A stretch of 9,849 nt of DNA from Desulfobacterales bacterium. GTDB taxonomy: Bacteria; Desulfobacterota; Desulfobacteria; Desulfobacterales; JAFDCJ01. Positions 197-9,775 of this stretch are shown here, piece after piece. The stretch spans positions 5,791,743-5,801,591 of the forward strand of contig CP070771.1 in the NCBI GenBank assembly GCA_020345785.1. Reading direction: 5' to 3'. The notes under the pieces were generated by a model. The model searched no databases, had not been told where the DNA came from, and saw nothing but the letters and a program-made list of their open reading frames with translations. The number at the start of each line of letters is the position of its first letter. Position 1 is the first letter of the stretch. The position numbers and the translations under genes were made by a program.

Positions 197-240
197 ACAA
201 CTCATAAAAACGATTAAATCCAATTTGGAAAAAAAAGGAT

Positions 241-269
241 TTGACAAAGAACAAGACCTTTTATATTCT
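241..269 (+). promoter_or_regulatory. Sigma70-type promoter of the first arsR
   Basis: A perfect TTGACA -35 box (241-246) is followed by 17 bp and a -10-like TATTCT (264-269); TATATT at 262-267 overlaps it with a shorter spacer. The site lies 25 bp before the arsR start codon and directly upstream of an operator-like dyad, as expected of a self-repressed arsR promoter. No transcript data are available. Confidence 0.6.
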
Positions 270-271
270 AT

Positions 272-291
272 TTTAACGATATATGAGGTTA
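272..291 (+). promoter_or_regulatory. Operator-like dyad before arsR, copy 1
   Basis: The 13-mer TTTAACGATATAT (272-284) occurs again, exactly and inverted, at 653-665 on the other side of the arsR gene. It also sits in an imperfect dyad, TAAC (274-277) and GTTA (288-291) around an ATAT centre. It lies between the -10 box and the start codon and covers the ribosome binding site, where a bound ArsR dimer would block transcription. Assignment as the ArsR site is inference. Confidence 0.45.
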
Positions 292-293
292 TT

Positions 294-638
294 ATGAAAA
301 CATTTGTGAAAGTCATGAAAGCGTTGTCTGATCCAAATCGGGTCAAAATTATCAAGCTGCTCCAGCAAAAATTTATGTGCGTTTGTGAGCTTCAGACGGC
401 ATTAAAGTTGGCTCAGCCAACGGTATCCAAGCACCTGAAAATACTCGAAGAGGCCGGGTTGGTTGACTATAAAAAAGAGGGCTTGTGGGTAAATTATTTC
501 CTTGCAAACGGCAAGAGCAGCCCCTACGCAGCCAGTTTGCTTGGAAACCTTCAACACTGGTTAAACGAAGATTCTGAAATCGCAGAATTGATGAAAAAAG
601 CACCTTTTATAAACCGGGTCGATATCTGTCGGGGTTAA
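294..638 (+). CDS. arsR: ArsR-family metalloid-responsive repressor
   Basis: This 114-residue winged-helix protein has the size and layout of ArsR/SmtB repressors. The As(III)/Sb(III)-sensing motif MCVCEL (residues 28-33, Cys29 and Cys31) lies just before the recognition helix region, which includes QPTVSKHLKILEEAGLV (41-57). The wing follows around KKEGLWVNYFLANG. In this family arsenite binding to the paired cysteines releases the dimer from its operator. The ATG at 294 is chosen because GAGG (285-288) lies 5 bp upstream; a TTG at 227 frame-extends the protein by 23 residues but lies upstream of the promoter and has no ribosome site. An extra Cys112 near the C-terminus could add a ligand. 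It probably controls itself and the downstream permease/thioredoxin genes. Confidence 0.9.
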   Translation: MKTFVKVMKALSDPNRVKIIKLLQQKFMCVCELQTALKLAQPTVSKHLKILEEAGLVDYKKEGLWVNYFLANGKSSPYAASLLGNLQHWLNEDSEIAELMKKAPFINRVDICRG

Positions 639-738: not shown

Positions 739-2127
739 ATGAGTGAACTCGCTACAGTTACTGAACATAGCGCCGGCATGGAACAGTCCTCTATGGTTGA
801 AAAGGTTGACACACAACCCAGCTCAATCCATTGGAAAGCCATATGGAAGCCTTTAAGCCTCATCATCGGGGTTTTTCTTATATTTTTCTGGTTGCCGATT
901 GACAGCAGCCGGTTTACGGGAGCGGTGATCGAGTCATTGGCATTAGCCAAGTGGTATGCCCAGGAGCACGTGCTGCTGTGCCTGGTGCCGGCATTTTTTA
1001 TCGCCGGTGCCATCTCGGTGTTCGTGTCTCAGGCAGCCGTGATGAAATATCTGGGCGCAGGGGCCAAAAAAATCCTTTCCTACGGAGTAGCCTCCGTTTC
1101 CGGTACCATTTTAGCAGTTTGTTCCTGCACGGTATTACCATTGTTTGCGGGTATCTGGAAGCGCGGCGCAGGTCTGGGCCCGGCGATTGCGTTTCTTTAT
1201 TCCGGGCCGGCAATCAATGTGCTCGCGATTGTGCTCACCGCCCGAATTCTCGGTCCCGAAATCGGCCTGGCCAGGGCTGTGGGGGCTGTTATGTTCAGCG
1301 TCGTCATCGGGCTGATCATGCACCTGATGTTTCACAAAGAAGAACAGTCCAAGGCAGAAGCAGCCCTGCACATGCCCGAGCAGGAAGTGGAGCGCCCCTT
1401 GGGGCAGAATGTAGTTTATTTTGCCGTCATGGTGGGCATCCTGGTGTCTGCGACCTGGGGGCAGCCGGCTGAACCGACCGGACTTTGGCATGCGATTTAC
1501 AGCGTCAAATGGTTAATGACCGGATTTTTTGCGATTGTCCTTGGGATACTGTTGGTAAAGTGGTTTCGCGTAAAGGCTTATAAGGTGGCCCTGGCTGCCG
1601 CTGCCGTTTTGGTCTTGGCAACTATTTTCCCCCACGAGCCGCTGGTTGCTTTCTCGGCCGGTATCATTGCCCTGGTGGTCCTGACCACCACTACCCGGGG
1701 AGAAACCGAGAGCTGGTTTATGTCCAGCTGGGATTTTGCCAAGCAGATCATGCCGCTCTTGTTTGCCGGCGTACTGGTAGCCGGGTTGCTGCTGGGACGT
1801 CCCGGTTCCGAAGGGCTTATACCTTCGCAATGGATTAGCGGGCTGGTGGGGGGCAACTCACTGTGGGCCAACCTGTTTGCCTCGGTGGTGGGCGCTTTTA
1901 TGTATTTCGCCACCCTGACCGAAGTGCCGATTTTGCAGGGGTTGCTCGGAGCCGGCATGGGCAAAGGGCCGGCATTGGCATTGTTATTGGCAGGCCCGGC
2001 GCTGAGCCTGCCCAACATGTTGGTCATCCGCAGCGTCATGGGAACAAAGAAAACGGTCGCCTTTGTCAGCCTGGTGGTGGTGATGGCCACCATCAGCGGG
2101 ATGATCTTCGGTCATTTTTTCGCCTAA
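739..2127 (+). CDS. ArsP/DUF318-type (YraQ-like) membrane permease
   Basis: This 462-residue polytopic protein has a soluble N-terminus of about 35 residues and then roughly ten hydrophobic segments. It shows the internally duplicated pattern of the ArsP_1 (DUF318) permease family. The first half carries CSCTVLPLFAGIWKRGAG (128-145) and GPAIN (156-160); the second half carries TEVPILQGLLGAGMGKGP (394-411) and GPALSLPN (419-426). Family members with known roles export trivalent organoarsenicals (ArsP) or other metal or thiol-reactive solutes; the substrate here cannot be read from sequence. The CSC pair in a membrane-associated segment is a likely soft-metal site. GAAGGG (722-727) lies about 11 bp before the ATG. 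A position behind an ArsR and ahead of two thioredoxins supports arsenical or thiol-reactive-metal export. Confidence 0.82.
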   Translation: MSELATVTEHSAGMEQSSMVEKVDTQPSSIHWKAIWKPLSLIIGVFLIFFWLPIDSSRFTGAVIESLALAKWYAQEHVLLCLVPAFFIAGAISVFVSQAAVMKYLGAGAKKILSYGVASVSGTILAVCSCTVLPLFAGIWKRGAGLGPAIAFLYSGPAINVLAIVLTARILGPEIGLARAVGAVMFSVVIGLIMHLMFHKEEQSKAEAALHMPEQEVERPLGQNVVYFAVMVGILVSATWGQPAEPTGLWHAIYSVKWLMTGFFAIVLGILLVKWFRVKAYKVALAAAAVLVLATIFPHEPLVAFSAGIIALVVLTTTTRGETESWFMSSWDFAKQIMPLLFAGVLVAGLLLGRPGSEGLIPSQWISGLVGGNSLWANLFASVVGAFMYFATLTEVPILQGLLGAGMGKGPALALLLAGPALSLPNMLVIRSVMGTKKTVAFVSLVVVMATISGMIFGHFFA

Positions 2128-2148
2128 TAAATGGAGAAGGAAAAACAC

Positions 2149-2661
2149 ATGTCCTCGGATGAAATCACTCGCATAAAAGTCGGAGGGGACCGGATCGGTA
2201 TCGTCGGACTTAAATCCATTCTCTCAGAGGTGGCCGAAGCGTCCGCCGTCCAAACCGATGAAGAAATTCGTTCCGAACTGTTCAAGCGGCTCCACAAGCG
2301 CAACTATATTCCCGAATCGTCGAAAGAGGAATATAGCAAGGCTTTCTTAAGAGAGTTCAAAAAATTTACCGGCCGTCCGACTGAGAACACCGGCCCGGAA
2401 GGGCTGGAAATCAAGGTATTGGGCCCCGGCTGTGCGCGCTGCAATCAACTTGAGCAGGATTTGATGGCCGTCATGGCGGAAATGAACCTGCCCGCCGATA
2501 TCGAACACGTTACCGATGCGCTTGAGATCAGCAGCTACGGCGTGATGGGCACCCCGGCACTGATTGTCAATGGAGAGGTCAAAGCGGTAGGTTCAGTACC
2601 GCCCAAAATTAAACTAAAGAGATGGCTGCAGGAGGCAGCCAGAAAGATTCCCAATAAATAA
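2149..2661 (+). CDS. Thioredoxin-fold protein with unknown N-terminal domain
   Basis: This 170-residue protein has two parts. Residues 1-75 form an unfamiliar charged, helical segment (key stretch KRLHKRNYIPESSKEEYSKA, 47-66). Residues 86-165 form a mini-thioredoxin of the MTH895/redox-active disulfide type: strand IKVLGPGC, active site CARC (95-98) and the cis-proline loop GTPAL (134-138). The start at 2149 is preferred because GGAGAAGG (2133-2140) precedes it by 8 bp; an in-frame ATG at 2131 would overlap that site. The start lies 21 bp after the permease stop, so the two are probably co-translated. A role in reducing the permease's substrate or its CSC pair is plausible but inferred. The next gene encodes a stand-alone relative of its C-terminal half. 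Confidence 0.8.
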   Translation: MSSDEITRIKVGGDRIGIVGLKSILSEVAEASAVQTDEEIRSELFKRLHKRNYIPESSKEEYSKAFLREFKKFTGRPTENTGPEGLEIKVLGPGCARCNQLEQDLMAVMAEMNLPADIEHVTDALEISSYGVMGTPALIVNGEVKAVGSVPPKIKLKRWLQEAARKIPNK

Positions 2662-2695
2662 AACTGTCACATGGTTTAAATGGAGGTATTTGAAT

Positions 2696-2929
2696 ATGGA
2701 TATTAAAGTGCTCGGACCCGGCTGCGTGAAATGCCAGCAAACGGAAAAAGTCGTAAAAGAAGCGGTGGCGGAAGCGGGCGTGGATGCTACCGTCGGACAT
2801 GTGACCGACACGATGGAAATCGCCGGCTACGGCGTGTTCGGCACACCGGCGGTGGTGGTGGACGGCGAGGTCAAAAGCGTGGGCAAGATTCCGAAAAAAG
2901 AGGATGTCATTGGTTGGATCAGTAACTAA
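2696..2929 (+). CDS. MTH895-type mini-thioredoxin
   Basis: This 77-residue protein is a complete short thioredoxin fold without extensions. It has strand DIKVLGPGC, active site CVKC (10-13), the segment TDTMEIAGYGVFGTPAVVVD (37-56) with the cis-proline at 51, and a C-terminal helix. Proteins of this class act as small cytosolic dithiol-disulfide carriers in anaerobes. GGAGG (2682-2686) lies 9 bp before the ATG at 2696; a TTG at 2690 would be too close to it. The body is strongly similar to residues 86-165 of the preceding protein (shared LGPGC, GTPA, GEVK and VG motifs), so the pair looks like a tandem duplication. It is the last intact gene of the first arsR module. Confidence 0.88.
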   Translation: MDIKVLGPGCVKCQQTEKVVKEAVAEAGVDATVGHVTDTMEIAGYGVFGTPAVVVDGEVKSVGKIPKKEDVIGWISN

Positions 2930-2998
2930 CAGGTGAATTCTATAATAGCAATACCCAAAGTGTCATCTGCCTCTCCTCAACAATCTAAAATGTATTGA

Positions 2999-3280
2999 AA
3001 AGGTTTCAGGTGTCAGCCTAGCCGCTGGCGTTACGGCTGCCAGTTTGATCATAAAATAAACATTGAACCCAGTTACGCGGGCGCGCCCAAACCAAAGCTG
3101 ATCGAAATTCTGAAACTATTGCCGAAGACCAATTGCAAGGAATGCGGCGAGCCCACCTGCATGGTGTTTGCCGCCCGCATGACCGAGGGAGTAAAGGAGC
3201 CGGCGGACTGTCCGCCAATGGATGCCGGAAAAAAGCAGCAGCTCGAAGAATACATGAGCCGATTCAAATTTGACATTTAA
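2999..3280 (+). pseudogene. Remnant of a 4Fe-4S (PF04060-type) domain protein
   Basis: The frame ending at TAA 3278-3280 encodes a clear CODH/ACS- or RnfB-type 4Fe-4S domain: KLIEILKLLPKTNC, then CKECGEPTC, then a fourth Cys in ADCPPM. It has no ATG, GTG or TTG before the domain and no ribosome binding site. Upstream the frame is closed by TGA 2996-2998, two codons after an ATG at 2990. A second frame (ending TAA 3057-3059) reads EKVSGVSLAAGVTAA and would join the domain frame by a -1 slip on A-AAA at 3053-3056. As I recall them, proteins with this domain in sulfate reducers have a longer N-terminal part that is missing here. I favour a truncated or frameshifted remnant; recoding is possible. 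The rest of 2930-3298 holds nothing else I can support. Confidence 0.6.
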
Positions 3281-3298: not shown

Positions 3299-3664
3299 AT
3301 GCGCGCCTTCAATCCCGGTCCTTTTGAAGTTCTCGGAATTGCGCCAGATGCGACCCAACGAGAGGTGAAACAGGCCTATCGTGGACTGGCGATGAAATTT
3401 CATCCCGATCACAACCCCGGTAAACCAGAAGCCGCAGAGCGCTTCAAACAAATCCAGCAGGCTTATGAAACCCTGACCGGCCGCAGAAAAGACAGTAGGA
3501 TAACACCAACTAACTTTTACCACAGAAGCCCCCCGCCGTCCTTTTTTAAAAACGAGCACCCGTTTTTTAGCTTTTATTGGGCAATGAGGGCCCATGGCGA
3601 CCGGATAATGAAAAACATGCAATCTAATTGCTCGGATGATCAAAATAAAAACAATGATAGGTAA
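3299..3664 (+). CDS. Small J-domain (DnaJ-like) protein
   Basis: The first 60 or so residues of this 121-residue protein form a canonical J domain: FEVLGIAPDATQREVKQAYR (9-28), the catalytic HPD at 35-37 and FKQIQQAYETL in the last helix. J domains stimulate ATP hydrolysis by Hsp70/DnaK. The remaining 60 residues are low in predicted structure, rich in Phe, Pro, Asn and Asp, and contain neither a zinc-finger domain nor a substrate-binding domain, so this is not full DnaJ. A strong GGGAGG (3285-3290) lies 8 bp before the ATG. It ends 19 bp before the TSUP permease gene. Its client is unknown; by position it might serve the neighbouring Fe-S or redox proteins. Confidence 0.85.
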   Translation: MRAFNPGPFEVLGIAPDATQREVKQAYRGLAMKFHPDHNPGKPEAAERFKQIQQAYETLTGRRKDSRITPTNFYHRSPPPSFFKNEHPFFSFYWAMRAHGDRIMKNMQSNCSDDQNKNNDR

Positions 3665-3683: not shown

Positions 3684-4586
3684 ATGTTTTTTCCGGTATC
3701 CGGTATCGAAGTCAATCCTCTCGTCCCTTTTTCGGTGGCTTTTGCTGTGTCGTTTTTTACTTCGATGGGCGGCGTCAGCGGCGCCTTTTTGCTGCTGCCG
3801 TTTCAGGTGAGCGTTCTGGGTTACACCACCCCGTCGGTCAGCGCCACCAACCAAGTATTCAACATCGCGGCGATTCCCAGCGGTGTGTACCGCTATATAA
3901 AAGAAGGGCGCATGCTCTGGCCGCTGACACGGGCCGTGATCATTGGCACGCTGCCTGGTGTCTTTATCGGCGCCTGGATCAGGATAAGGTATTTGCCCGA
4001 TCCCACAAATTTTAAATTTTTCGCCGGCCTGATGCTGGGATACATCGGCTGGCGGCTGCTGCTGGATATCCTTAAAAACCGACACAAGCCAAAACCCCAA
4101 AACACACCGAGCAACTCAGGCCGACCCCATGAGGTATACGTAAGGGCTGCTGCGCTGCGACGGGTTGAATTTGAATACAACGGCGAGCTGTTTGGATTCT
4201 CACCGTCATGGGTTTATCTGATCTGCTTTTTAGTGGGCATTGCCGGCGGAATTTACGGAATCGGCGGCGGGTCGATCGTGGCACCTTTTTTTGTGGCCAT
4301 CATCGGTTTGCCCGTTTACACCGTGGCCGGTGCCGCCCTGATGGGAACCTTCATCACATCCGCAGCCGGTGTGGCCTTTTACCACTTGCTCGCAGTGTTG
4401 CATCCGGAGATGCAAATCGCACCGGACTGGCTGTTGGGAGTTTTATTCGGTTTGGGAGGATTATTGGGAATGTATGTCGGTGCCAGGACCCAAAAATACG
4501 TTCCGGCCCGGGTTATCAAGGGCATCCTGTGTTTGTGCGTTCTGTTTGTAGCCGGCAAATATATAATCGGCTTTTTCAAAATATGA
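3684..4586 (+). CDS. TSUP (TauE/SafE-like) membrane permease
   Basis: This 300-residue membrane protein has about eight hydrophobic segments in two halves, each with the glycine-rich signature of the TSUP family: SMGGVSGAFLLLP (27-39) and GIAGGIYGIGGGSIVAPF (185-202). A hydrophilic loop at about 131-172 separates the halves. TSUP proteins move sulfite, sulfonates, thiosulfate or other sulfur oxyanions; the substrate here is unassigned. The loop is unusually long and Lys/Pro/Asn-rich at first (NRHKPKPQNTPSNSGRP). The ATG at 3684 follows the J-domain stop by 19 bp with only a weak AGGTG upstream. One of the few genes here ending in TGA, it closes the stretch before the second ArsR promoter. Sulfur transport next to arsenic genes may relate to thioarsenate or persulfide handling, which is speculative. 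Confidence 0.85.
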   Translation: MFFPVSGIEVNPLVPFSVAFAVSFFTSMGGVSGAFLLLPFQVSVLGYTTPSVSATNQVFNIAAIPSGVYRYIKEGRMLWPLTRAVIIGTLPGVFIGAWIRIRYLPDPTNFKFFAGLMLGYIGWRLLLDILKNRHKPKPQNTPSNSGRPHEVYVRAAALRRVEFEYNGELFGFSPSWVYLICFLVGIAGGIYGIGGGSIVAPFFVAIIGLPVYTVAGAALMGTFITSAAGVAFYHLLAVLHPEMQIAPDWLLGVLFGLGGLLGMYVGARTQKYVPARVIKGILCLCVLFVAGKYIIGFFKI

Positions 4587-4740: not shown

Positions 4741-5124
4741 ATGTTTGAATTCTTAAATATTACCAAAGCCCTGGCGGAGGAAAACCGGCTCCGTATTTTG
4801 CTGGCATTGGACGGACGTGAGCTTTGTGTTTGTCAGATCATCGAACTGCTGGAGCTTGCGCCTTCCAGGGTTTCCAAGCATATGAATGTGCTCAGACAGG
4901 CTCGCCTGGTGAACGGACATAAGGACGGCCGCTGGATGTATTATCGGTTGGCAAACGGAGGTGCCCCCGCACAGGTGCAGGAAGCCATCACCTGGGTGAA
5001 AAAATCGCTTTTGAAAGACAAACGCATCTGCAGTGATGCCAAAAGAGTGAAAGAAATTCTCAAAATAGACCGGGAGGTGCTCTGTAACCGGCAGACGCGT
5101 TCCAGCGCAGGTCAAAACAGCTAA
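4741..5124 (+). CDS. arsR: ArsR-family arsenite-responsive repressor
   Basis: This 127-residue winged-helix protein carries the classic arsenite-sensing motif ELCVCQ (27-32, Cys29 and Cys31), a recognition region APSRVSKHMNVLRQARLV (40-57) and the wing KDGRWMYYRLANG (61-73). A C-terminal tail of about 40 residues has extra cysteines at 97 and 115 that could join As(III) binding. The AAGGTG at 4731-4736 sits 4 bp before the ATG. It shares the fold and CxC site with the first ArsR, but its operator is different, so the two modules are probably separately wired to related inducers. It lies immediately downstream of a perfect palindrome and 23 bp upstream of the exporter gene, the usual arsR-acr3 order. 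Confidence 0.93.
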   Translation: MFEFLNITKALAEENRLRILLALDGRELCVCQIIELLELAPSRVSKHMNVLRQARLVNGHKDGRWMYYRLANGGAPAQVQEAITWVKKSLLKDKRICSDAKRVKEILKIDREVLCNRQTRSSAGQNS

Positions 5125-5147: not shown

Positions 5148-6178
5148 ATGGGCAATGAAGCAATTCAAAACAGTGACCGCAAAATGAACAGTGTACTGAA
5201 CGGTTTCTTTCTTTGTGGGTGATTTTGTGCATTGTCGCAGTTATCCTGCTCGGAAAAATCGCCCCGGGGGTCGCACAGTATCTAGACGGGTTGGCTATCT
5301 ATGTCAAGGGAGCGCCGGTGGTGTCTATCCCGATTGCCGTCTGCCTGTTTTTCATGATGTATCCCATTATGGTCAAAATCGATTTCGGCGAGGTCATCAA
5401 GGCCGGCAAAAGCCGCAAACCGGTGTTTTTGACCCTGTTTATCAACTGGGCAATCAAACCCTTTACCATGTATGGCATTGCACTGTTTTTTCTGGGTACG
5501 CTGTTTTATCATTTCATTGGGCCGGATGCCGTGGATCTCGTCAAGATGCCGTTTGGCCTGGACTTGCCGGTCGGTGCCACACACGGCGCCGGAACGGTGG
5601 TCCTGGTCGATGGTGTCAAGATGCTGCAGGTGCCTTTGTGGCGCAGCTATCTGGCCGGCTGCATTCTTTTGGGTATTACCCCCTGCACTGCCATGGTGCT
5701 GGTGTGGGGGTATCTGTCGCGCGGCAACGACGGACTGACCCTGGTGATGGTAGCCATCAATTCGCTGACTATGCTGTTGCTCTATGGTGTCTTGGGCGGA
5801 TTTCTGCTGGGCGTGGGGCGCCTGCCGGTGCCCTGGCAGGCGCTGCTGCTGTCCATTGGAATTTACGTCGCCTTGCCGCTCTTTATCCAGACCGTGCTGA
5901 TTTTCTGGCTGGGATATGCTCTGGCGCGGCTGCCGAAGCTGCGCTACATGGACACCGCGCCGGCAGCCATGATCGGCGCCTCCAATCACTTCGAAGTCGC
6001 CATCGCCACCGCCACGATGCTCTTCGGTTTGTCTTCCGGTGCCGCCCTGGCCACCGTGGTGGGAGTTTTGATCGAGGTACCGGTGATGCTGATGCTGGTT
6101 AAAATCTGCCTGAAAACCACCCATTGGTTTAAAACAGCAGAAGCAGGCATGGCAGCTCAGCAGCCGACGACCGGGTAA
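5148..6178 (+). CDS. acr3: ACR3-type arsenite efflux permease, 5' frame broken
   Basis: From 5213 to 6178 the frame encodes the body of an ACR3 (bile acid:Na+ symporter superfamily) arsenite exporter with about ten membrane segments. Typical blocks are [19 protein letters not shown], with the membrane Cys, and [15 protein letters not shown] and [13 protein letters not shown], with the conserved Glu; both are residues thought to be essential for arsenite transport. The best start is ATG 5148, with AAGGAG (5133-5138) 9 bp upstream, but its frame stops at TGA 5220 after 24 codons ([12 protein letters not shown]...). The exporter frame carries a family-like [10 protein letters not shown] immediately upstream of the TTG at 5213, so a -1 shift around 5204-5212, in TTTCTTTCTTT, restores a normal N-terminus. 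Alternatives are a sequencing or real 1-base deletion, a recoding event, or initiation at TTG 5213 without a ribosome site. The segment before the Cys block looks longer than I expect for ACR3. Confidence 0.85.
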
Positions 6179-6186
6179 CAATCAAA

Positions 6187-6480
6187 ATGCATCAAATCAA
6201 TAACTTGCAGATATCCGATCTTTATGTTCGCCTGATCGCCGAGCGCGGCGGCAGCATGAGTATTTTTAACGGAACCACTGTTGCCGGGTGATGAAAAGGG
6301 GTCGAAGGTCCGATCGGTCGGATCGGCAAGCCCATTAACGATGAGGAATATCTCCATGTCAGGGTAAAAGGGATTCAGCTGTTTGTCGAAAAAAAACTGG
6401 TCGATGCGCTGCCTGAAAGCGGAGGCCGGATCAATGTGCTGATGGGGGATTACGGCTGCTGGACGATCGTTTTTAATTAG
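6187..6480 (+). CDS. Small HesB/IscA-like selenoprotein with two tandem in-frame TGA (Sec-Sec)
   Basis: Reading from ATG 6187 to TAG 6478-6480 gives 97 codons whose only interruptions are TGA TGA at codons 35-36 (6289-6294). Both halves read like one protein: SMSIFNGTTVAG before the TGAs, then KGVEGPIGRIGKP, a VKGIQLFVEKKLVDALP block and GDYGCWTIVF at the end. The order of strands, the G-x-x-U-x-G-x-x-GP loop and the late FVEKKL...I.V..GDYG segment resemble HesB/IscA-like proteins, a family with known selenoprotein members. A hairpin 21 nt after the second TGA fits a bacterial SECIS. The ATG is 8 bp after the acr3 stop without a clear ribosome site, which suggests coupled translation. Vicinal selenols or thiols would suit binding As(III), Fe-S or a metal; the function is unknown. 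The alternative is a pseudogene with two adjacent nonsense changes. Confidence 0.7.
6310..6326 (+). promoter_or_regulatory. Putative bacterial SECIS hairpin
   Basis: CCGATC (6310-6315) and GATCGG (6321-6326) form six Watson-Crick pairs around the loop GGTCG (6316-6320). The loop begins 21 nt after the second TGA. Bacterial SECIS elements have an apical loop roughly 16-37 nt after the UGA, at least four upper-stem pairs and a G among the first two loop bases. The loop starts GGUC, as in the E. coli fdhF element as I know it. A competing register (TCCGA 6309-6313 with TCGGA 6318-6322) is possible. Confidence 0.65.
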
Positions 6481-6563
6481 AAGCCGCAGATAAAGCGAAC
6501 TGCTCCATTATAAAGCTGTCAGGATGCGTGAAATGATCAATGGTAAACCGCAGGATCGGCGCA

Positions 6564-7946
6564 ATGGAAAATGATGAACCTGAAAACACTGCCAGAATGG
6601 TGGTCGATGCGTGTTCGGATTGCGATGTGTGTCGCTTTCTCATGGATACGGACTGTCTGATGTTTCCTGAACTTTACCGGCTTTACGATAAGGGGCGGGA
6701 AACCGGGGAGCAGATTACTTCCGCGGAACTCAGAAATCTGGTCAATCTCTGCAATTTCTGTGCACTTTGTCCTTGTCTCAATATCCGTGCCGATATCATC
6801 CGGGCCAAAACTCAAATCATCAGAAGGGACGGATTGAAGTTCGGGGTGCGCAGCCTGGAAGACGTGCAGCGGGTGGCCAGGCTGTGCGGCATGTATCCAA
6901 AGATGGCGAACAGGCTTTTCCAGAACAATTCCAGCGGCCGATTCCTCAAAGCAGCCGCTGGCATTCACCCGCAGCGCAGGATTCCGGAGTTTCCCGCCGA
7001 GAATTTTCCGCAATGGGCCCAAAAGCATCGTCTGAATACCCGGCCAAAGAAGCAGGCGCATCGAAAAATCGCCTATGTTGCAGGCTGTACGGCCAACTAC
7101 CTTTTTCCGGAGGTCGCCAAAGCCGCAGTAGAGGTTTTTCAGCATCACGGATTTGAAGTCGTCTATCCGGAACAAAAATGCTGCGGCATGCCGAGCCTGC
7201 TCGAGGGCGATCAGTCATTGACAATGAAATTTGTGCGCTTCAATCTGGAGCGCCTGTCCGAATTCATAGACAAAGGTTACGACATTGTCTGTTCGTGTCC
7301 CACCTGCGGCTTCATGCTGAGAAATATTTTAAGCGAGGGCGCCTATTATTCCCGGCAATATCAAGAGTCGGCAGGGGTCGCTGAGAAATATCTGAAAATT
7401 CCGGTCTCAAAAACGCCGGATAATCCGGGAGGCCAAAAGTTCGAGCTGCTGAAAAAAAACATGTGTCAGGACATCCTCAAAGACGAGGGGTATTTTTCGC
7501 CCATCGACCCCCTCAAGCGCATTCGCGTGGCGGAAAACAACTTTGATCTGGGACAATACCTGGCCGATCTTCACCGCTCAGGGGCGCTGAAAACGAAATT
7601 CGGCGAGGTATCGGGCCGCATGGTCTATTATCCTCCCTGCCATCTCAGAGTGCAGAACATCGGCACGCTGTATCAGGAGCTGTTGAGTTTGCTGCCGAGC
7701 AACGATCTGCAGCCCGAAAACGGCAATCTGTACTGTTGCGGCACGGCGGGAATCATGGGATTCAAAAAGGATTTTCATGATGCATCCCTTCAGCTGGGAA
7801 ACCGATTGAGCGCCAAAATTAAGGAGCTTCAGCCGGAAAAACTGGTCACCGACTGCCTCAGCTGCCGCCTGCAATTCAAACAACTGCTTCCCTGCAAGGT
7901 CCTCCATCCGATCGAAATTCTCCAAGAAGCCTATGGTTTGGGTTAA
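6564..7946 (+). CDS. GlpC/HdrD-like Fe-S oxidoreductase with two CCG domains
   Basis: This protein of about 460 residues has two ferredoxin-type clusters at the N-terminus: CSDCDVC with a fourth Cys at 31 (Cys17, 20, 23, 31) and CNFCALCPC (63-71). Two CCG (DUF3483/heterodisulfide-reductase) domains follow: GC at 174-175 with KCCGMP (205-210) and CSCPTC (243-248), then PPC (357-359) with YCCG (390-393) and CLSC (431-434). Proteins of this class, such as HdrD and GlpC, pass electrons between ferredoxin-level donors and thiol/disulfide or quinone partners, using a non-cubane 4Fe-4S site at CCG. ATG 6564 is preferred because AGGAT (6552-6556) precedes it; an in-frame ATG at 6540 adds 8 residues. 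No membrane segment is seen. It ends 8 bp before the AOR gene, so it is very probably its electron-transfer partner. The 83 bp upstream hold no other feature. Confidence 0.88.
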   Translation: MENDEPENTARMVVDACSDCDVCRFLMDTDCLMFPELYRLYDKGRETGEQITSAELRNLVNLCNFCALCPCLNIRADIIRAKTQIIRRDGLKFGVRSLEDVQRVARLCGMYPKMANRLFQNNSSGRFLKAAAGIHPQRRIPEFPAENFPQWAQKHRLNTRPKKQAHRKIAYVAGCTANYLFPEVAKAAVEVFQHHGFEVVYPEQKCCGMPSLLEGDQSLTMKFVRFNLERLSEFIDKGYDIVCSCPTCGFMLRNILSEGAYYSRQYQESAGVAEKYLKIPVSKTPDNPGGQKFELLKKNMCQDILKDEGYFSPIDPLKRIRVAENNFDLGQYLADLHRSGALKTKFGEVSGRMVYYPPCHLRVQNIGTLYQELLSLLPSNDLQPENGNLYCCGTAGIMGFKKDFHDASLQLGNRLSAKIKELQPEKLVTDCLSCRLQFKQLLPCKVLHPIEILQEAYGLG

Positions 7947-7954
7947 GAGGACAT

Positions 7955-9775
7955 ATGCTCTACGGCTATGGTGGAAAAATACTGCGAGTTGATTTAACAT
8001 CCGGTCGTATTTTAAGCGAAAAGACCGATCCCCTTCACATGTTGTCGGTCATCGGCGGCCGTGGCTTGAATTCAACGACTCTGTACCATGAATTAAAACG
8101 CGACATCGACCCGCTTTCTCCGGAAAATCTGCTGCTCATCGGTGTCGGCCCGCTGACGGGCACACTATTGACCGCCTCCGCTTATACGACGATCTCCGGC
8201 AAATCGCCTTTTACCGGAATACTGGGTGATTCGGCTGCCGGCGGGCATTTCGGGCCGGAACTGAAACAGGCCGGCTACGATCAAATCATCATAACGGGCT
8301 GCGCCGACCGGCCCAGTTACCTGCTTGTTGCCGGCGAGCGCATTGAAATCCGCGATGCCGGCCACCTGTGGGGGTTGGATATCTGGGAAACCGGCTCCAG
8401 GATCCGCCGCGAACTCAATGACAATGCCTTACAAATTGCGGCCATCGGTCCGGCGGGAGAGAATCTGGTGAAGTACGCGACGGTTGCCTGCAACAACTCG
8501 CGCATGTTCGGACGCGCCGGGATGGGATGCCTGTTCGGCTCCAAAAATCTCAAAGCTGTCGTCGTCCGCGGAACCGGCCGGTTGAAAGTGGCCGACCCGC
8601 CTGCCTTTCTTGAACGTTGCCGCGAAATGGATGAAAGGATCCTGCGGCATCCCGAATATGACCGCCGCAAGGCCATGGGCTCAACCCTGTTGATGACGGC
8701 TTTAAACCGCCTGGGCATCCTGCCGACCGATCACTTCCAGAAGGGTGTGTGCGAATACGTCGAGCGGGTCAGTGGTGAACGCATTGCGGAAGAATTCAAG
8801 GTCAAAAACAAAGCCTGCTATAATTGCAACATTCACTGCTCCCGCTATTTTCTCACCAGAGAGGTTGAGGGCGAGGGACCTGAGTTCGAAGCGCTTTGCA
8901 GTTACACCTCCCGCATCGGCAATGATGATCTTGAATTCGCCCTGAAGATTATCACGTTTTTGAATCGCATGGGGTTGGACGCGCTCAGTTCCGGCGAAAC
9001 CATCGGCTGGGCCATGGAATGCGTGCAGCGCGGCCTGCTAGGCAAAGATGATTTTGACGGCCTTGATTTCACCTGGGGCAATCGTGAAACCATTGAAAAG
9101 GTGCTGTCTATGATTGTCCACAGAGAGGGTATCGGGGATGCCCTTGCCGAAGGAGCTTACTGCCTGGCCAAATCATACGGCAGGGGCACAGAAGAATATG
9201 CCCTGCATGTCAAAGGGCTGGATATCATCTGCGGCGACCCGCGCGGCATCAAAGCCTTCGGCCTGACCTATGCGATCGCCTCGCGCGGCGCAGACCACCT
9301 GCGGGCGGAGCCGTTTTTCGAATTGACGGAACGCTACGATGAGGCCGAAAAGCGCTGGGGCATCCGCGAAATTGCGGATCGGTTGGCAGAAAAAGGTAAA
9401 GCCGTCCTGGTGGAGCACACCGAGCGCCAGGCACTGCTGACAGATTGTTTGACCGTTTGCAAGAATATCGGTTTGAGCATGGATATTCTCGATTTCGAAC
9501 TGGGGTCCCGGCTGTTGATCAGCGGCACAGGGCTTAAATTTACTCCCGAGAAGGTCGATGATGCACTGAAAGGCGTCATCGAACGCGACCGGCTGATGAA
9601 TATCGATTTTGGAGTGGACGGCAGCCAGGATACGTTGCCCAAACGCTTTATTCATGAACCATTGGAGGAGGGAGCTTCCAGAGGCCAGGTTGTCCCGGTG
9701 GACCGCATGGTTAAAGAATATTACAAGCTTCGCGGCTGGAATGAAGATGGCGTTCCGATCATCAAGAAAAAATAA
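7955..9775 (+). CDS. Aldehyde:ferredoxin oxidoreductase (AOR) family tungsten enzyme
   Basis: This 606-residue protein has full AOR length. It begins with the family block YGGKILRVDLTSGRI (4-18) and GGRGLNS, continues with GVGPLTGT (63-70) and a GRAGMGCLFGSKNLKAV block (186-202) in the tungstopterin-binding region, and has the 4Fe-4S ligands CYNCNIHC (Cys288, 291, 295) with a C-terminal Cys partner in the LLTDCLTVCKN block (498 or 502). The three cysteines occupy the same numbers as in the P. furiosus enzyme as I know it. AOR enzymes oxidise aldehydes, or run related low-potential chemistry, with ferredoxin or an Fe-S partner. Here the adjacent CCG protein is the likely partner. The substrate cannot be assigned; relation to benzoyl-CoA-reductase-type (BamB) or other AOR clades would need a tree. 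Ribosome site GAGG is 4 bp before ATG 7955. There is no signal peptide, so it is cytosolic. Confidence 0.93.
   Translation: MLYGYGGKILRVDLTSGRILSEKTDPLHMLSVIGGRGLNSTTLYHELKRDIDPLSPENLLLIGVGPLTGTLLTASAYTTISGKSPFTGILGDSAAGGHFGPELKQAGYDQIIITGCADRPSYLLVAGERIEIRDAGHLWGLDIWETGSRIRRELNDNALQIAAIGPAGENLVKYATVACNNSRMFGRAGMGCLFGSKNLKAVVVRGTGRLKVADPPAFLERCREMDERILRHPEYDRRKAMGSTLLMTALNRLGILPTDHFQKGVCEYVERVSGERIAEEFKVKNKACYNCNIHCSRYFLTREVEGEGPEFEALCSYTSRIGNDDLEFALKIITFLNRMGLDALSSGETIGWAMECVQRGLLGKDDFDGLDFTWGNRETIEKVLSMIVHREGIGDALAEGAYCLAKSYGRGTEEYALHVKGLDIICGDPRGIKAFGLTYAIASRGADHLRAEPFFELTERYDEAEKRWGIREIADRLAEKGKAVLVEHTERQALLTDCLTVCKNIGLSMDILDFELGSRLLISGTGLKFTPEKVDDALKGVIERDRLMNIDFGVDGSQDTLPKRFIHEPLEEGASRGQVVPVDRMVKEYYKLRGWNEDGVPIIKKK

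Follow-up and report, generated by a model that had tools for sequence, protein, structure and literature searches.

The UU gene and its tandem TGA

The DNA analysed here, referred to as the window, is a 9,849-nucleotide (nt) stretch of a Desulfobacterales bacterium (contig CP070771.1, positions 5,791,743 to 5,801,591 of the forward strand); window positions are counted from its first letter. Between an acr3 arsenite efflux gene and a gene for an HdrD/GlpC-like protein, its plus strand carries a small gene at 6187..6480 that encodes a candidate selenoprotein of 97 amino acids (aa) with two adjacent selenocysteine (Sec, U) residues, U35 and U36, and ends in a TAG stop. We call it the UU gene. 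Its tandem TGA TGA at 6289..6294 is very probably read as Sec-Sec, with TGA TGA in 15/15 homologues.

The frame from 6187 to 6480 comprises 97 codons and the TAG, and is broken only by TGA at 6289 and TGA at 6292. With TGA read through, it is open from 6133, and its first ATG lies at 6187. Across the six frames of the window, we counted 13 in-frame TGA TGA pairs without another flanking stop, and the pair at 6289 alone was flanked both ways by over 50 open codons (52 and 61). No table-11 open reading frame (ORF) of at least 60 aa was found on the plus strand from 6179 to 6539, which bears out the original prediction, made from this DNA alone, that a conventional gene caller would leave 6179-6540 nearly empty. 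A Pfam scan of the UU protein returned no domain at E 0.1, the ArsD domain included, a sequence search of the PDB gave no match at E up to 1, and an Rfam scan of the window yielded three sub-threshold matches only.

Conservation of the TGA pair

Fourteen further UU genes were identified: L001-L012 in a contig scan of genomes, together with L024 (genome G479) and L026 (genome G475), the latter truncated 5' where its contig stops. The titles of L001-L012 describe metagenome-assembled genomes of Deltaproteobacteria, Desulfobacterales, Desulfobacteraceae or named genera belonging to the Deltaproteobacteria/Desulfobacterales. In all 15 UU genes (window, L001-L012, L024 and L026), TGA TGA occupied the same pair of columns in the alignment, and no other stop preceded the end of the gene. 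Two consecutive TGA codons as the sole breaks in a 97-codon frame beginning at ATG 6187, as originally proposed, were thus confirmed by the reading frame and by 15/15 homologues.

Within the order, 389 genomes were searched and yielded 16 matches, comprising 13 UU genes (L024 and L026 being new), one relative with Sec-Cys (UC) at the pair (L027, genome G588) and two matches judged spurious and dropped (L028, L029). At the phylum level, 395 genomes gave two matches, of which that in genome G001 was real and the other (L014) was judged spurious and dropped; with one real match among 395 genomes, the UU gene is rare. No UU relative was found in plasmids by tblastn or in viral_contigs by profile search, and the latter set held no match for the HdrD-like gene either.

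Among public proteins, a protein search returned 19 relatives, and the total rose to 34 (P0002-P0035) after a profile search. The pair site reads Trp-Trp (WW) in 14 of them, while 17 start beyond the pair; the remaining P0014, P0019 and P0035 are apparently frame-shifted or misstarted around the pair and were set aside as uninformative. None of the 34 has Cys at both positions. P0002, a WW protein, matches the G479 gene L024 letter for letter, and since the DNA of L024 reads TGA TGA, its WW represents TGA read as Trp; P0002 is the only one of the 14 for which the DNA basis is known. At V39, where many public fragments start, just one of the 15 UU genes has a start codon (GTG). A terminal TGA stop was present in 6 of the 13 UU genes with a printed stop, so TGA still serves as a stop in those genomes. 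Four full-length public WW proteins (P0004, P0005, P0010 and P0012) carry the Pfam label PF28096; a domain entry for the UU group may therefore already exist, perhaps built from sequences in which UGA was mistranslated.

A SECIS-like hairpin downstream of both UGAs

A hairpin resembling a selenocysteine insertion sequence (SECIS), CCGATC-GGTCG-GATCGG, lies on the plus strand at 6310..6326, its loop 21 nt after the second TGA and 24 nt after the first. A 6-bp stem (6/6 pairs) at the same 21/24-nt spacing is possible in all 15 UU genes. The loop reads GGTCG in 14 and GGGCG in one, starting with GG in every gene, and the minimum free energy (MFE) of the hairpin alone ranges from -7.6 to -11.7. 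The bacterial SECIS model, as worded in a 2026 review (PMC13188914), has a 3-9 nt loop, a 4-16 bp stem, G within the first two loop positions, a distance of 16-37 nt from the UGA and an MFE of -7.5 or lower. The UU hairpin lies within these constraints for both UGAs at once in 15/15 genes.

With L024, which lay on the other strand, left out, 84/84 stem-pair cells of the remaining 14 genes were standard pairs, and RNAalifold recovered the same helix. One stem pair showed two both-sided changes among the 14 rows (G-C to A-U and G-C to U-G). We also compared synonymous differences along the alignment. Codons +7 to +11 differed in 0.107 of same-residue comparisons versus 0.505 in the 69 other columns, and formed the lowest five-column window for synonymous change (permutation p 2e-5, with row kinship not modelled). 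This synonymous freeze is a stronger SECIS signal than the covariation. The covariation is thin, with 5/6 stem pairs invariant. Two results weigh against the hairpin: the folding energy of single rows is mostly ordinary relative to codon-resampled versions, 3/15 falling below 0.05; and among the 51-nt folds of 13 rows, at least the window and L001 favour another fold.

Selection and the Sec machinery

We estimated dN/dS by the Nei-Gojobori method on either side of the TGA pair, with ratios printed for eight pairs of genes. The values were 0.05-0.44 downstream and 0.17-0.58 upstream; since dS is high or saturated in many comparisons with the window, the weight rests on the close pairs. The pN was lower downstream than upstream in 13/13 comparisons of the window with genes whose upstream part is complete, and the order was reversed in the partial L026. 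Both halves of the UU gene are under purifying selection. A dN/dS close to 1 in the downstream half had been named as grounds for abandoning the prediction, and the observed values are well below it.

The genomes of the 14 relatives were then examined for Sec machinery, counted at curated cut-offs. SelA and SelB each exceeded the cut-off in 12/14 genomes, and tRNA-Sec in 10/14 (8/12, plus G475 and G479), each at 75 bits or more. All three occurred together in 9/14 genomes and at least one in 13/14. The expected machinery was thus found in most relatives; against it, genome G007 had no SelA, SelB or tRNA-Sec over cut-off, and may be incomplete. In 14 well-known control genomes, SelA, SelB and tRNA-Sec passed in 1, 2 and 5, respectively, making the tRNA-Sec cut-off the least specific. 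Looser matches at E 0.001 for SelB and tRNA-Sec occur in all controls and were excluded from the counts.

Relationship to the CC/Se motif family

The original prediction had allowed that a small protein family with a CC or Sec pair might be known. Such a family exists, NCBIfam NF041239 ('CC/Se motif family (seleno)protein'); the window protein scored 27.2 bits against its cut-off of 40 and is therefore a relative of this family, not a member. Of the 20 members of alignment A1, 15 matched NF041239 at E up to 10, the best at E 3e-6. A search of 297 Desulfobacterota genomes gave NF041239 matches in 11, with 8 over cut-off, and 12 of the 13 matches were read for their pair residues. The pair was CC in two, UC in two, U followed by A, R or G in seven and absent in one (L042), and never UU; the first position was U in nine and C in two, the second C in four and A, R or G in seven. 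Ordinary residues at the pair, which would have counted against the prediction, thus occurred in none of the close relatives, and one of these 12 distant matches, L042, lacked the pair altogether.

Using hhalign, a UU profile of 13 of the 15 genes aligned with the 12 NF041239 matches at a probability of 97.9, placing UU on the CC of L034, although both profiles are shallow. Genome G001 holds both the CC form (L034) and the UU form (L001). The UC relative L027 (G588, 1501-1683, minus strand) was found with the UU profile at E 3.7e-5 and 29% identity, and aligns U under the first U and C under the second. L027 is nearest to the NF041239 match L037. The aligned site, invariably TGA TGA in close relatives, holds CC, UC or U followed by another residue in distant ones. 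The two groups share a length of about 90 aa and Sec or Cys at the first pair position. They differ in that a Cys near the C-terminus, present in 8/12 NF041239 matches, is absent from the UU group, and in that the UU group has its own signatures, GPIGRxGxP and MxDYG. Judged by sequence, the UU group is a sister group of the NF041239 CC/Se family with Sec at both positions.

Gene neighbourhood

On the plus strand upstream of the UU gene, the window encodes a second ArsR-like regulator that clusters with other ArsR proteins (225..638), an ArsP_1 permease (739..2127; PF03773), a protein with a C-terminal ArsE-type thioredoxin domain (2131..2661; TIGR00412, 88.1 bits), an MTH895/ArsE-family thioredoxin-like protein (2690..2929; TIGR00412, 95.5 bits, cut-off 62), a DnaJ-domain protein (3299..3664; PF00226), a TauE/SafE permease (3684..4586; PF01925), an ArsR/SmtB metalloregulator (4741..5124; NF033788, HTH_5) and the apparently damaged acr3 gene (5213..6178; TIGR00832, 270.7 of 282.8 bits, SBF). 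The next downstream gene, also on the plus strand, encodes the HdrD/GlpC-like protein with cysteine-rich CCG domains (6540..7946; PF02754 twice, NCBIfam GlpC-like below cut-off), and is followed by one for an aldehyde:ferredoxin oxidoreductase (AOR)-like protein (7955..9775; AFOR_N, AFOR_C).

The prediction had placed the UU gene inside an arsenite-resistance operon, between acr3 and an Hdr-like/AOR pair. The arsenic-type context held up more widely. At least one ArsR, ArsP-type, Acr3/SBF or ArsE-like gene lay within about 6 kb in 11/15 loci (window, L001, L002, L004, L005, L006 and L008-L012, that of L012 being an ArsE-like piece), and no arsenic-type neighbour was identified in L003, L007, L030 and L031 among the part of their ORFs that was scanned. 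The downstream pair did not generalise: AOR had no match in the L001-L012 loci and was found in the window only, and the HdrD/GlpC-like gene was the next same-strand neighbour in 5/15 loci (window, L001, L009, L010 and L030), and in L011 such a gene lies on the opposite strand at a distance of about 8 kb. Recurrent neighbours in the relatives included DsbD_TM (9/14 loci), one thioredoxin cluster (8/14), and DGC, rhodanese, MauE and PF04060 genes.

Several further observations concern individual genes. Compared with a 397-aa relative in L002, the acr3 region of the window (5148-6178) shows a frame change near the 5' end and lacks about 60 residues in mid-protein, which could reflect real decay or an assembly fault. 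A PF04060-type Fe-S gene at 2930-3280 aligns with no more than the C-terminal 77 residues of a 174-aa L001 protein and looks like a shortened remnant. The TGA at 2996 in this ORF was considered as a second Sec codon in the window and rejected, as the match to relatives starts only later in the protein. In L001, the gene preceding UU (8705-9562) encodes a radical SAM protein nearest to a tungsten-cofactor oxidoreductase maturase family, though well under its cut-off (192 of 380 bits); with the AOR gene following UU in the window, a tungsten link is possible.

Five loci encode, between dsbD and the UU gene, a second candidate selenoprotein of about 66 aa with the conserved core LQPH-U-VPVFE(V/A)SYGP. 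Its copies lie at L004 9771-9977, L002 2900-3097, L005 1625-1828 and 4681-4869, L006 4864-5061, L007 1844-2041 and L008 14256-14447. Matches occurred in 24/242 genomes of the order, and the best match contained exactly one TGA in 22 of these. Among 100 public proteins found, 73 stop at LQPH, six have W at the Sec site and none has C. The candidate had no NCBIfam match and was not found in the window.

Predicted fold

In the structure model of the UU protein, the pair (residues 35-36) lies between strands 23-33 and 37-46. A Foldseek search with this model returned IscA, SufA, AQ_1857, a YneR complex and DsrR in its first nine rows, all weak matches. The 10 VIA entries comprised the same set together with HI1723 and two putative Fe-S biosynthesis proteins, and these entries share the HesB fold.

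The protein had originally been called HesB-like; the fold matches behind this description are weak, and no link in sequence was found to the HesB-like selenoprotein family. That family, TIGR01911, gave no profile match to the UU protein at E 0.01 and none among 20 members at E 10, and an hhalign comparison of UU with five HesB-like selenoproteins from the same genomes reached a probability of 1.1. TIGR01911 proteins are likewise small and contain Sec, but have one Sec, in UGGP; the fold may be shared. Single-Sec HesB-like proteins with UGGP (L044-L048), all under the TIGR01911 cut-off, were present in 5/6 UU genomes searched.

Discussion

Coding constraint acts on the UU gene, in which two adjacent UGA codons are obligate. 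The gene represents a new subgroup, the UU group, and the CC/Se family of NCBIfam is its relative. Strict conservation of the pair, the SECIS-like hairpin, the Sec machinery of the relatives and the distant CC/UC homologues together strongly support the tandem Sec originally proposed, and we consider it very probable that both UGAs are read as Sec under the direction of the single hairpin just downstream. For the function of the protein, we tentatively favour, at slightly short of even confidence, a Sec-Sec pair at the tip of a beta-hairpin in a small IscA/HesB-like domain, which as a vicinal diselenol would capture a soft metalloid for the neighbouring permeases and redox proteins. The metalloid would most likely be As(III) or an organoarsenical, a guess prompted by analogy with the Cys pairs of ArsD and by the arsenic-type neighbours, and it would be passed to the efflux permeases and to the thioredoxin/Hdr-type redox proteins encoded alongside. 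The whole explanation, from the UU group through Sec-Sec insertion by one hairpin to capture and hand-over of a soft metalloid, we regard as evenly balanced between right and wrong.

By this analogy, Sec-Sec would do with selenium what neighbouring Cys pairs do in ArsD, where they bind As(III) (PMC12607644). The two proteins have in common a neighbouring chalcogen pair and an ars-operon setting. The UU protein differs in lacking the ArsD domain and in having Sec where ArsD has Cys. The thioredoxin-like fold of ArsD is also unlike the UU model.

The main rival, which we consider unlikely, is a redox relay in which the pair cycles between a diselenol and a strained vicinal diselenide and carries electrons from thioredoxin/DsbD-like or HdrD-like partners to an arsenical or another oxidised substrate. 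The recurrent DsbD_TM-type genes and thioredoxin cluster (9/14 and 8/14 loci) and the adjacent HdrD-like gene (5/15) speak for such a relay, and PMC13188914 considers a redox function likely for most selenoproteins that are still uncharacterised. The protein itself fits less well: it has no thioredoxin-family match in NCBIfam or Pfam and no conserved third Cys (C91 of the window protein is not conserved), and its best model matches are IscA-like. Those matches, in the first nine Foldseek rows and the VIA entries alike, instead point to an A-type (IscA/SufA/HesB) iron-sulphur or metal carrier with Sec ligands. This reading is less likely than the relay and improbable overall, given that the matches are weak, that no isc or suf gene was seen among the neighbours scanned, and that the UU protein lacks the C-terminal Cys-x-Cys ligands carried by IscA.

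It is very unlikely that only one UGA encodes Sec while the other is read otherwise, by a near-cognate tRNA or Cys insertion, or that the doublet is a regulated stop. Two UGAs sharing one hairpin would fit such a reading, as in E. coli an altered distance between UGA and hairpin harms recoding. Nevertheless, both TGAs persist in 15/15 genes where one substitution would give TGC, TGT or TGG, both spacings (21 and 24 nt) fall within the 16-37 nt range, and in distant relatives the site holds CC or UC. A chance TGA pair, a pseudogene, a sequencing error, two ORFs or genome-wide reassignment of TGA to Trp, to which the public proteins reading WW or starting beyond the pair might have pointed, was rejected with a negligible residual probability, in view of the 15/15 conservation, the purifying selection on both halves, the count of TGA pairs, the rarity of a start codon at V39, the UU genes ending in TGA and the TGA TGA beneath the WW of P0002.

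As regards precedent, the motif column in the accessible part of the table of 119 selenoprotein families and subfamilies in PMC13188914 contains no Sec-Sec, some rows being without a motif, and NF041239 is listed there with one Sec. The metal-linked CU-type selenoproteins SaoC, SaoL, MbdU and KCU-star in the same review resemble the UU protein in their adjacent chalcogen pair and, for some, in a metal or organometal context, whereas their listed motif is Cys-Sec. A literature search of titles and abstract openings, which covered deep-Sep (PMC12013277) and PMC1794560 by word search, gave no report of adjacent bacterial Sec, and two Haft papers cited by PMC13188914 could mention it. A viral overlapping frame with two tandem UGA codons has been proposed (PMC11510084). 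We suggest, with some reserve, that no natural bacterial family with a conserved, obligate Sec-Sec dipeptide may precede the UU group, in which one SECIS would direct two successive UGA recodings, through processive use of SelB, and the resulting vicinal diselenol would provide a very tight handle on arsenic or another soft metalloid in an anaerobic resistance pathway.

In the public proteins found, the UU gene has been missed or mistranslated as WW. Its decoding raises the question of how one hairpin serves two UGAs 3 nt apart: at the reported efficiency of 30-40% per UGA (PMC4513850), independent reading of both would succeed in only 9-16%. That both UGAs are strictly conserved across the 15 genes suggests a role for Sec-Sec that Sec-Cys cannot fill. 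Often encoded among arsenic-resistance genes, the UU protein may bind soft metals unusually strongly. Should the pair bind arsenic, selenium supply would be linked to arsenic resistance in these relatives of sulfate reducers.
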